A DNA stretch of 64,000 bases, taken from positions 62,001 to 126,000 of the forward strand of contig NZ_FOUD01000012.1 of the NCBI RefSeq assembly GCF_900114765.1, read 5' to 3'. The stretch's first letter is position 1; each line of letters begins with the position of its first letter. The notes below the pieces were generated by a model. That model saw only the letters and a list, made by a program, of their open reading frames with translations. It did not search any database and was not told the DNA's origin. Below are positions 9,008-56,898 of the stretch, one piece after another. The DNA is from Halopseudomonas pachastrellae (GTDB lineage Bacteria; Pseudomonadota; Gammaproteobacteria; Pseudomonadales; Pseudomonadaceae). Made by a program: the position numbers and the translations under genes.

Positions 9008-10054
9008 TCAGTTGTCCTGAGGATCAGACAGCGGGTTGCCGACCAGCCGGTCCAGCGCCGCATTGACCTGCGCGGGCATCAGATCACGCAGGCAGTTGTA
9101 GTGCCCAAAGCGGCAGGTGCGATCAAAGCAAGGGCTGCAATCAAGCCCCAGCTGCAAGGTCTCTACCCGGTCAGCCAGCGGCGGCGTAAAGCCGGGCGAA
9201 GTAGAACCGTAGACCGCGACCAGCGGGCGGTTGAGCGCAGAGGCAACGTGCATCAGCCCCGAGTCATTGCTGACCACCGCATCGGCGCAAGACAGCAGGT
9301 CGATGGCCTGGGCCAGGCTGGTATCACCGCAGAGGTTGGTCGCCTCCTCGCGCAAGCCCGGAATCAGGCGACCGCGAATCTGCTCGGCCACCGCGTGGTC
9401 CTTCTTCGAGCCAAACAGCCAGACCTGCCAGCCCTGACGTATATGTGCATCGGCCACCGCCGCGTAGTGCTCGGACGGCCAGCGCTTGGCCTCGCCAAAC
9501 TCGGCGCCCGGGCAGAGCGCCAGCACCGGGCGATCCAGCTCCAGACCAAAATGCTGCAAGGCCTGCTCGCGCGAGGCAGGATCAATCTGTAGCGCCGGGC
9601 GTGGATAAGGCTTGGGCAGCTCGATATCCGGCTCATAGGCCAGCGCCATAAAGCGCTCGATCATCAGCGGATAGGCTTGCTTATCGAGCTTGCGCACGTC
9701 GTTCAGCAGGCCGTAGCGCATTTCGCCGCGCCAGCCGGTACGCAAGGGAATATCGGCAAAAAAGGGTACCAGTGCCGACTTAAGGGAGTTGGGCAGCAGG
9801 ATGGCCTGATCGTATTGGCCACGCAGGCCATGGCCTATCTCGCGCCGGGTGCGCAGCTCCAGCGCGCCATGCCCCAAGGGAAAACTCAGGGCCTGACGAA
9901 CCTCAGGCATGCGCTCAAGGATTGGCCGGCTCCAGTCGGGCGCCAGCACATCGATCATGCAGTCATCACCGTGTCGCTGCTTCAGGCAGGTGAACAGCGT
10001 TTGCGCCATCACCATGTCGCCGACCCAGCTGGGACCGATAATCAGAATATTCAT
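9008..10054 (-). CDS. waaF: LPS heptosyltransferase II WaaF
   Basis: A 348-residue GT9 enzyme adding the second heptose of the LPS inner core from ADP-heptose. It begins MNILIIGPSWVGDMVMAQTL and has LCPGAEFGEAKRWP and SNDSGLMHVASALNRPLVAVY, all diagnostic for WaaF. It is the first gene of the core operon (waaF-waaC-waaG-waaP and onward), in the same order as P. aeruginosa PA5012-PA5009. The 82-bp gap before it holds a dyad repeat rather than a recognisable promoter, so transcription may begin further upstream, before or inside ilvE. Confidence 0.95.
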   Translation of the reverse strand: MNILIIGPSWVGDMVMAQTLFTCLKQRHGDDCMIDVLAPDWSRPILERMPEVRQALSFPLGHGALELRTRREIGHGLRGQYDQAILLPNSLKSALVPFFADIPLRTGWRGEMRYGLLNDVRKLDKQAYPLMIERFMALAYEPDIELPKPYPRPALQIDPASREQALQHFGLELDRPVLALCPGAEFGEAKRWPSEHYAAVADAHIRQGWQVWLFGSKKDHAVAEQIRGRLIPGLREEATNLCGDTSLAQAIDLLSCADAVVSNDSGLMHVASALNRPLVAVYGSTSPGFTPPLADRVETLQLGLDCSPCFDRTCRFGHYNCLRDLMPAQVNAALDRLVGNPLSDPQDN

Positions 10055-10055
10055 A

Positions 10056-10134
10056 AGCTTCCAGCTTCAAGCTGCAAGCGACAAACCCCGAACGGCCCAC
10101 GACTGCTTGCCGCTTGAAGCTTGCCGCTTGTGGC
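10056..10134. repeat. REP-like AAGCTTCAAGC dyad between ilvE and waaF
   Basis: The gap between ilvE and waaF is filled by imperfect inverted repeats. The left arm contains AGCTTCCAGCTTCAAGCTGC and the right arm GCTTGCCGCTTGAAGCTTGC, with about 30 bases between them. The same AGCTTCCAGCTTCAAGC word closes the longer repeat elements at 24.9 kb and 45.57 kb, so this looks like a short relative of that family. It could form a hairpin in the ilvE-waaF transcript and act as an mRNA stability or attenuation element. Confidence 0.6.
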
Positions 10135-10136
10135 AA

Positions 10137-11060
10137 TCAACCTACCAGCGTCCGCCACTCGGCGTGCTCTGCGGTCTGGCCGGTAACCAGATCGAAGTAC
10201 GCCTTTTGCAGTTTCTCGGTAACCGGGCCACGACGGCCAGCGCCGATCTGACGGCCATCCAGCTCGCGGATCGGTGTTACTTCAGCGGCAGTACCGGTGA
10301 AGAAGGCTTCATCAGCGATGTAGACCTCGTCACGGGTGATGCGCTTCTCAACTACCGGAATGTCGAACTTGGAGGCCAGCGCCAGCACGGTCGCGCGGGT
10401 AATGCCGTTCAGGCAGGCAGTCACTTCCGGCGTGTAGATGGTGCCGTTCTTGACGATGAAGACGTTCTCGCCGGAACCCTCGGCAACGTAGCCTTCCGGA
10501 TCCAGCAGCAGCGCTTCATCAGCACCGGCGGAAACCGCTTCCTGCAGTGCCAGCATGGAGTTCATGTAGGCACCGCTGGCCTTGGCACGGGTCATGGTGA
10601 TGTTGACGTGATGACGGGTAAAGGAGCTGGTGCGGATCTTGATACCGCGTTCCAGTGCTTCTTCTCCCATGTACGCACCCCAGTGCCAAGCTGCGATAAC
10701 AACGTGCACTTTCAGGTTGTCAGCACGGATACCCATGCCTTCAGATCCGTAGAACACCAGCGGACGGATGTAGGCGGTTTCCAGCTTGTTCTCACGTACC
10801 ACAGCGCGCTGAGCTTCGTTCAGCTGCTCTTTGGTAAAGGGAATTTTCATACCCATGATGTGAGCGGAATCGAACAGGCGATCCGTGTGTGCATCCAGAC
10901 GGAAAATGGCGGTGCCATCCGGGGTGTTGTAGGCGCGCACGCCTTCGAATACGCCCATGCCGTAGTGCAGCGAGTGAGTCAGCACGTGCACATTGGCCTC
11001 GCGCCAGGGAATCATTTCTCCGTCAAACCAGATTAGACCATCACGATCGGCCATCGACAT
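10137..11060 (-). CDS. ilvE: Branched-chain amino acid aminotransferase
   Basis: A 307-residue class IV PLP enzyme that transaminates the 2-oxo acids of leucine, isoleucine and valine with glutamate. LHYGMGVFEGVRAY, TRAKASGAYMNSMLAL (PLP Lys) and AEGSGENVF are present. Length matches P. aeruginosa IlvE (307). The frame is open to an ATG at 11075, but MSMADRDG at 11060 is the family start and has a GGAG upstream. It sits between glnE and waaF on the same strand, as in P. aeruginosa (PA5013). Cytoplasmic. Confidence 0.93.
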   Translation of the reverse strand: MSMADRDGLIWFDGEMIPWREANVHVLTHSLHYGMGVFEGVRAYNTPDGTAIFRLDAHTDRLFDSAHIMGMKIPFTKEQLNEAQRAVVRENKLETAYIRPLVFYGSEGMGIRADNLKVHVVIAAWHWGAYMGEEALERGIKIRTSSFTRHHVNITMTRAKASGAYMNSMLALQEAVSAGADEALLLDPEGYVAEGSGENVFIVKNGTIYTPEVTACLNGITRATVLALASKFDIPVVEKRITRDEVYIADEAFFTGTAAEVTPIRELDGRQIGAGRRGPVTEKLQKAYFDLVTGQTAEHAEWRTLVG

Positions 11061-18744: not shown

Positions 18745-18798
18745 GCTCACCATGTCGGAGGTTGTAGATTCTGGCACCAGCTGGTGAACTCAGCACGG

Positions 18799-19015
18799 AC
18801 CCGGGTCCCCGTTTACGCGGGCGAGTAGCGCAGGGCTGGCGGGAAAAAGGACGGCAGCATGTCTGAGGCTCGCAGAGCCGAGTTCTGCCGTCCCCCGCTA
18901 GACCGAGCAACGCAGCGAACCCGAAGGGCCGCGTAGTCGGGGTGGCCTAGGGGGTGCAGGGGGAAATGGCCAAGCATTTCCCCCTGCTCGCCGTAAAGGC
19001 GAAAAGCAGACCTGA
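18799..19015 (+). repeat. Structured dispersed repeat, copy 1
   Basis: This block is closely repeated in reverse orientation at 56581-56803. Shared parts include GTTTACGCGGGCGAGTAGCG, GGGCTGGCGGGAAAAAG, CAGCATGTCTGAGG, GAGTTCTGCCG, GCAACGCAGCGAACCCGAAG and GGGCCGCGTAGTCGGG. Hairpins visible here are GGACGGCAG/CTGCCGTCC (18849-18857 with 18885-18893), GGCTC/GAGCC inside it, a 13-bp stem with a GCCAAG loop (18956-18987), and TCGCC/GGCGA (18989-19003). It lies between the aceF and clpB terminators. No long frame has convincing coding character; the reading frame across it on the minus strand is probably spurious. Confidence 0.8.
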
Positions 19016-19050
19016 ACAATACCCCGCCCAAAACAAATCAACAGATAAAC

Positions 19051-56443: not shown

Positions 56444-56580
56444 CCAGCGTCCTTGGTGCTATGGCGTGAGCAAAACCGCATTGTTGCCCCAGCATCTGCG
56501 CGTGACAAGAGGCGATAGATACAGAACCCAAAAGCGCGTCGCGAACCACAGAGCAACTGATCTTCTTTCATTACGCCTAC
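56444..56580. other. Spacer upstream of the lonB-like gene
   Basis: About 140 bases between the protease start and repeat copy 2. The protease promoter should be here, but no convincing -35/-10 pair was recognised. No coding frame. Confidence 0.4.
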
Positions 56581-56803
56581 ATCAAGTCAGCTTTTCGCCT
56601 TCACGGCGAGCCAAAGGGGGGCTGCTTGCCCAGCCCCCCCTTGGCGATCCCCCAGGCACCCGACTACGCGGCCCTTCGGGTTCGCTGCGTTGCTCAGGCT
56701 AACGGGGAGCGGCAGAACTCGTCGCTCCGCTCCTCAGACATGCTGCCGCTCTTTTTCCCGCCAGCCCTGCGCTACTCGCCCGCGTAAACGGGACAAAACC
56801 CGG
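56581..56803 (-). repeat. Structured dispersed repeat, copy 2
   Basis: Inverted relative of 18799-19015. Conserved words (on the minus strand) are the same, including GCAACGCAGCGAACCCGAAG. Stems here are GAGCGGCAG/CTGCCGCTC (56707-56715 with 56743-56751), a GGGGGGCTG/CAGCCCCCC stem with GGCAAG loop extended by CCAA/TTGG (56611-56644), and TCGCC/GGCGA. The stem bases differ from copy 1 but pair equally well. It lies between the lonB-like gene and the HemD-like gene. Confidence 0.8.
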
Positions 56804-56898
56804 TGCACGCTCCAGCATCCGCGCACTCGGCAGACTACACTGTGCAGTACCTTTACGCGCTATCACAGCATTCCACAAAAACCCGCCTTTAACCCAGA

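Follow-up and report, generated by a model that had tools for sequence, protein, structure and literature searches.

Multi-helix intergenic repeats of Halopseudomonas pachastrellae as candidate structured ends of a cargo-carrying mobile element

Background

The attC ends of integron cassettes are folded on one strand and have covarying stems, and the cassette cargo is typically small (GNAT, GFA). REPs and REPINs, which go with RAYT transposases, are described as intergenic, high-copy, hairpin-forming sequences that occur as facing inverted doublets, solo copies being thought of as doublet remnants (PMC3116915), and the length of a REP is given as 20-40 bp (PMC3733652). Two miniature copies can also bound passenger genes in a non-autonomous unit, as described for MITEs, mobile insertion cassettes and TIME-COMPs, and TIMEs are said there to derive from Tn3-family transposons (PMC4133298, PMC13367494). 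Among the intergenic repeats R0-R200 of P. fluorescens, many are described as predicted hairpins, and R200 and R26 reach 320 bp and 352 bp, respectively (PMC2718517).

The window analysed here is a stretch of 64,000 nucleotides of the H. pachastrellae genome that contains two solo copies of a repeat. Like REPs and REPINs, the element is intergenic, hairpinned and present in high copy number, and it forms facing doublets in relatives. However, each arm is about 255 nt with six helices rather than a palindrome of 20-40 bp, some pairs hold cargo, no link to Y1 was seen, and a cognate Y1/RAYT gene is missing from 9 of 16 element- or motif-bearing genomes. Passenger genes lie between two copies, as in TIME-COMPs and mobile insertion cassettes, in eight pairs of one family (f47) and in one pair of the window's genome, neither window copy being involved. 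Unlike in MITEs and TIMEs, the ends are covarying multi-helix folds; no parent transposon was found across 119 motif loci, and no target duplication at the compared sites, none of which is a clean empty site. The one-strand fold, covarying stems and small GNAT/GFA cargo are shared with attC, but the pairs are facing rather than direct and are dispersed rather than arrayed, and this orientation argues against attC. Going by their published description rather than by consensus sequence, the R0-R200 families are likewise intergenic Pseudomonas repeats, two of them similar or larger in size, and one may be a relative of the element.

We propose, with a probability of about 0.45, that the repeats are the structured ends of a non-autonomous, cargo-carrying mobile element and that the window copies are solo ends.

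Results

Both blocks of a preliminary description of the window lie where it had placed them and in opposite orientation, although the unit is longer than first described, at about 255 nt. Conservation among copies extends from about 16 nt 5' of GTGCAC to about 22-29 nt 3' of GGCGAAA and is weak at the outer ends. Copy 1 (18775..19030, forward strand, ends approximate), delimited by match and by conservation among copies, has a beta-type 5' flank, GCACGGACCC, and sits between convergent genes whose translations read as aceF and clpB. Copy 2 (56568..56824, reverse strand, ends approximate), delimited in the same way, has an alpha-type 5' flank, GTGCACCGGG, and is preceded and followed by genes, one at its end and the other at its start, the latter with a translation that reads as lonB-like. 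Both flank types occur in the genus, and a facing pair in G002 has one member of each; the window is best read as holding one beta-type and one alpha-type solo end. The content of the aceF-clpB intergenic region and its orthologues (L084-L113), whether repeats or genes, varies across many members of the genus, and Y1 transposase matches adjoin the region in G018 and G042.

In element orientation, P1 closes the core and is followed by a short internal stem, by P2, P3 and the apical P4 as one long hairpin, by a CCC-GAA-GGG mini-hairpin, and then by P5 and P6. In copy 1, all on the forward strand, P1 was placed by covariation (18808..18820 and 18929..18941), and alleles together with covariation placed P2 (GGGCTGGCGGG, 18833..18843; CCCGCTAGACC, 18894..18904) and P3 (GGACGGCAG, 18849..18857; CTGCCGTCC, 18885..18893). 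The P3 strands enclose the conserved TGTCTGAG...CGAG part (18860..18882), a diverged version of a cross-phylum motif that includes the P4 hairpin GGCTC-GCA-GAGCC. The mini-hairpin (18920..18928) follows from the alignment of copies, P5, a 13-bp hairpin around GCCAAG (18956..18987), from the fold, and P6, CGCC-GTAAA-GGCG with AAA after it (18989..19004), from conservation among copies. In copy 2, on the reverse strand, covariation places the 5' and 3' strands of P1 (56780..56792 and 56659..56671), P2 (56757..56767 and 56696..56706) and P3 (GAGCGGCAG, 56743..56751; CTGCCGCTC, 56707..56715), and the fold places a P5 hairpin of unrelated sequence around GGCAAG (56611..56644). P3 and P5 are stems 1 and 2 of the preliminary description, which had both stems right in both copies. 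Compared with dinucleotide shuffles, copy 1 folds with z -5.40 and copy 2 with z -4.40, none of 200 shuffles equalling either.

The preliminary description had suggested that the element may be undescribed, and Rfam agrees: the window has no match at curated (gathering) scores, and of 11 loci with relatives the only three such matches lie outside the element. At low threshold there were weak matches only, the best family for copy 1 being P15 (23.7 of 70 bits). Literature searches of open-licence PMC text listed no description of the repeat's sequence or fold. At L079, two xanthine riboswitch matches in divergent orientation reach the gathering score (9742-9791, reverse strand, and 10101-10151, forward strand).

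With copy 1 as blastn query, 42 matches, some partial, were found dispersed over the 3.93-Mb genome, and 36 of these were taken into the alignment. The best near-full non-self match reaches 87% for copy 1 and 93% for copy 2. Several copies carry further sequence. An inverted-repeat insert of about 270 bp occurs at one point before P5, its inner part in both orientations, in L016/L041, L020/L040, L031, L033 and L034 of the same genome and at L083 (4777-5266 and 8682-9175). An insert of about 15 nt, ACCTCGCCGGCCACC or its complement, lies near the 3' side of P3 in L010, L020 and L028-L034, and a separate palindrome of the ACGCAGAGCGTGGGAACGATC type adjoins the element in L004, L007, L011, L030, L036, L076 and L080.

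Within the genus, distribution is nearly all-or-none: 10 of 37 genomes are positive, nine with 20-24 matches, from a search that scored 20 candidates per genome, and one with two. In that last genome, G049, the two matches (L210, L220, G049:C7) are spaced like two copies of G010:C47, which possibly reflects recent transfer or contamination. Another positive genome, G013, is probably Pseudomonas neustonica, because G608, which contains locus L382 of that species, has Y1 matches at coordinates identical to those in G013. Genus copies are mostly solo and diverged, and they occupy sites that are old and shared (of 10 sites in the compared part of G039, 6 are still occupied and one partly so); therefore no recent transposition is seen in the genus.

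Covariation was measured on 46 distinct genus copies, obtained after a text filter had excluded 26 matches and 6 of the remaining 52 copies had been excluded for inserts or deletions. RNAalifold proposed 59 pairs for this set, 21 with two-sided changes. Over the 44 pairs of the named stems, 94.1% of cells pair (86.0 in shuffles), 18 pairs change on both sides (13.4 in shuffles), and the covariation score is 0.269 as against 0.126 in shuffled and 0.03-0.06 in slid controls; the further pair types, 41 as against 37.8, show no excess over shuffles, since 28 of 500 shuffles reach 41. A cross-family alignment of 30 of 33 collected sequences, several candidates having earlier been passed over by the text filter, gives 83.2% of cells paired (67.8 shuffled, 38-46 slid), two-sided change in 28 of 36 pairs (22.0 shuffled) and covariation of 0.435 (0.188 shuffled), with the long-range P1 and the short internal stem included; its further pair types are not above shuffles, 266 of 500 of which reach the observed value. 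The proposal that the stems change in sequence while keeping their pairing is thus upheld by a wider alignment, far above shuffled and slid controls on most measures. Because the shuffles ignore the relatedness of the copies, and genus copies are non-independent through module exchange, we give more weight to the distinct allele pairs, 28 for P2 and 20 for P3, and to the cross-family result.

Exchange of modules is visible where copies stay in place. When copies at the same site were compared between species, in nine cases, P2-P4 are 65-99% identical, whereas columns 1-26 are 96-100%, columns 110-146 are 92-100% and P5-P6 are 77-100% identical. P3 differs in seven of the nine, and in six of these seven neither version has fewer than 8 of the 9 pairs; in one comparison (G039_L269) two P3 pairs are lost. 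The hairpin alleles recur in other copies, which makes conversion between copies the likely route by which whole hairpin modules are exchanged. The preliminary description had equated compensatory change with selection on structure and had named conversion from other repeats as the competing source of the stem differences. Conversion does account for part of these differences as module exchange; it explains the movement of alleles but not the complementarity of nearly all distinct alleles.

If the two strands are equivalent, mutation of a Watson-Crick pair should yield G-T and A-C at the same frequency. Among the distinct P1-P3 alleles of the genus, G-U (G-T) exceeds A-C by 41 to 5 (41:7 with P4), from which we infer that one strand folds, be it as RNA or as single-stranded DNA; over all genus copies and helices the ratio is 100:9. 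This bears on the view that covariation arises without selection, by template-switch palindrome correction and gene conversion that match the arms to each other. Wholesale replacement of hairpin arms between copies is what such a process would produce, yet the process is strand-symmetric, and the long-range P1 and the internal stem covary too; we consider it very improbable as a general account. In other phyla there is little bias (173:130, p 0.016, 112 of 119 motif loci scored; on a stricter count over 108 of the 119 loci 86:62, p 0.058, and 38:26, p 0.17, for the innermost 15 pairs), and because the asymmetry is weak outside the genus, palindrome correction may contribute there.

The main rival of the mobile-element reading takes the repeat for a structured non-coding RNA or for an element carried in transcripts, whose RNA fold is maintained by selection and whose dispersal is secondary. 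The covariation, the excess of G-U over A-C and the compact multi-helix fold with conserved internal loops would suit it, as would a compensated pair within the most conserved motif, which is G-C in 16 and C-G in 7 of 23 copies of one family found by a search expression, with no mismatch. The absence of Rfam matches at curated scores speaks against it, as do the apical loops, which are mostly GNA triloops in the genus, with GTCA and GTTA in some relatives, and not GNRA. GNA loops are unusually stable in single-stranded DNA. At 29 loci of the window's genome both neighbouring genes lie on the element strand in 5, both on the opposite strand in 8, and the neighbours are convergent in 8 and divergent in 8; in other phyla the corresponding orientation counts are 25 and 32 of 95 loci (95 of 119 scored). 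This lack of a sense preference counts against an RNA function, which would not lead one to expect facing pairs or cargo turnover either, and we regard such a function as unlikely.

Relatives with a TTTCTTTTG-type hairpin, which the preliminary description had mentioned, were indeed found, as a divergent family with a TTTCTTTTGGTTACTTTTCTTTG hairpin in the element-bearing genomes themselves. One member of this family is matched in 27 of 194 genomes and 15 of 97 genera of the order, in some cases in the P5 hairpin only. A covariance model, R1, finds 21 of the 194 genomes and 11 of the 97 genera under strict filters. An exact scan for the 27-nt internal motif GGACTGTYTGAGCGNAGCGAGTTCCGC recovered at least 120 stretches of GTDB genomes, including Patescibacteria, Lachnospiraceae, Bacteroidales and Nitrospira. 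The stems around the motif differ in sequence between genomes, and its arms pair better than shuffled ones (median score 34 as against a mean of 20), with 36 of 112 loci scoring more than double. Searched against 40 hand-picked motif loci, of which L323 and L348 are themselves in the model, R1 matches over its whole length in Methylotenera, Sideroxydans, Cellvibrionaceae, Desulfobulbaceae and Arenicellales, and more weakly in Nitrospira and Barnesiella. The motif is sporadic in distribution: a free-loop pattern matched 1 of 398 genomes of the phylum, and the window's own genome gave 0 matches because its copies carry the diverged form TGTCTGAG...CGAGTT. The element belongs, as a diverged member, to a superfamily with an internal hairpin motif that spans many phyla, although sporadically. 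There was no match to the exact motif in IMG/VR, to one genus copy by blastn in PLSDB, or to a composite from G228 by blastn in INPHARED.

No clean insertion boundary or target-site duplication was found in five paired-site comparisons, nor a clean empty site among three sites unoccupied in G039 or, across the genus, at the two sites of the window. Where the element is missing, additional DNA on the flanks is missing as well or the neighbours are different. Over the paired genus sites, the G039 sites, the G228 unit and the sites shared by G163 and G135, none of which offers a clean empty site, no target-site duplication was seen, and no neighbouring gene recurs among the 119 motif loci. A Y1 transposase was considered as the mover and rejected, as Y1 matches do not track the element. 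The facing pairs, intergenic placement and hairpins of the element would befit a giant REPIN moved by a REP-associated (Y1/RAYT) transposase, but Y1_Tnp has no match in 9 of 16 element- or motif-bearing genomes (G043, G228, G207, G188, G602, G603, G607, G609 and G610; some incomplete, although G043 and G228 are single contigs) or in G017 (83% complete). The other 7 of the 16 have Y1 matches, one below cut-off. In addition, Y1 is present in four genus genomes that lack the element, and a search with the genus profile placed no element within about 1.5 kb of any of 28 Y1 loci. We consider a giant REPIN very improbable.

Across the order, with at most 17 candidates scored per genome and 134 R1 matches listed, adjacent matches no more than 300 bp apart are head-to-head in 19 of 23 cases, and those up to 2.5 kb apart in 24 of 31. 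A head-to-head unit of 541 bp, in which the facing copies form an imperfect inverted repeat, has six near-full copies in G228 that are 84-100% identical to the query copy; five of the six were aligned, and they have swapped P2 stems and entire P5 hairpins. Orthologous copies in opposite orientation occur between genomes. In-place inversion was set aside as their cause, since an ancestral facing pair with different survivors may account for them, as one three-genome case shows; by the same example, solo copies would be survivors of facing pairs.

In three genomes of family f47, facing copies lie 0.7-2.2 kb apart with ORFs between them. A solid head-to-head pair with enclosed ORFs is present at 8 of 25 loci, five of which had been preselected for such a pair (3 of the remaining 20 are positive). 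Seventeen cargo ORFs were called mechanically, 15 of which were run against Pfam and 10 against PADLOC. Their matches are GIY-YIG/UzuA, GFA, GNAT, alpha/beta hydrolase and DUF3592, with one weak LmuA and several ORFs without match; the match to the defence gene UzuA has E 2.6e-93. At the doubtful locus L487, whose left end matches weakly over 48 nt and which is for this reason left out of the solid pairs, a DUF4145 ORF has a weak PD-T7-4 match. In the window's genome, a HEPN-like ORF (E 6e-4, short of the curated cut-off) and a second ORF, of 207 aa, lie within a head-to-head pair (L073, 10905-13331), and in the relative G006 a TIR_2 (TIR-domain) ORF (E 2.8e-12) lies inside the same right end.

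G163 and G135 share seven sites with elements in both, three with cargo and four with no enclosed ORF in either genome, and at all three cargo-bearing sites the cargo differs in part. Different ORFs are present at the rlmKL-ygiQ site and at the mdh-acn site (names by sequence), the latter with a GNAT remnant common to both genomes. At the hisA-side site, G163 has UzuA and GFA, and G135 has a 200-aa ORF and GFA, the G135 comparison (L501) stopping short of the far end. Three further sites have neither elements nor cargo ORFs in G135 within the approximately 1.5 kb compared; a neighbouring gene also differs, and these are therefore not clean empty sites.

These comparisons could also be read as portable homology, in which an old repeat persists while its copies recombine and homologous recombination swaps the DNA between facing copies. 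Module exchange at orthologous sites, the swapping of cargo where elements persist and the lack of a transposase in the Y1 and recurrent-neighbour searches fit this account. It leaves the conserved folding, the one-strand bias and the cross-phylum motif unexplained, however, and it sits poorly with the joint loss of elements and cargo at other sites and with the presence of the 541-bp unit at six places of one genome. We judge it rather unlikely.

Discussion

Under the mobile-element reading, each block would be one end of a non-autonomous element whose full unit is two head-to-head copies that turn their P5/P6 sides outward and lie near each other or else flank small accessory genes, one to three in number. 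Each copy would fold on one strand, with P1 as the closing stem, the P2-P3-P4 hairpin presenting the conserved internal motif, and P5 and P6 following. A putative enzyme acting in trans would recognise this folded strand, which would explain why the stems keep pairing while their sequence drifts; the anatomy of the copies is in keeping with terminal structures read in this way. Units would then decay to solo ends, and copies would exchange hairpin modules by conversion.

The element is real, conserved and mobile-looking. A more specific proposal is that the repeats are recombination sites of a new gene-cassette system, in which a putative recombinase reads the folded strand with the cross-phylum motif and swaps single accessory genes, including defence genes, at fixed chromosomal sites. 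The cassette reading draws on few loci, the cargo cases coming from one family (f47) and one genus site, and we hold it to be doubtful.

Conclusions

The occurrence of the 27-nt motif from Pseudomonadota to Patescibacteria, with no Rfam match, indicates that the annotation of repeats has a large gap. If swappable accessory and defence genes are indeed bounded by paired elements, cassette sites would be findable by fold alone, and there would be a direct route to the enzyme. Should the cassette-system reading be true, dispersed chromosomal sites would be served as attC serves integron arrays.
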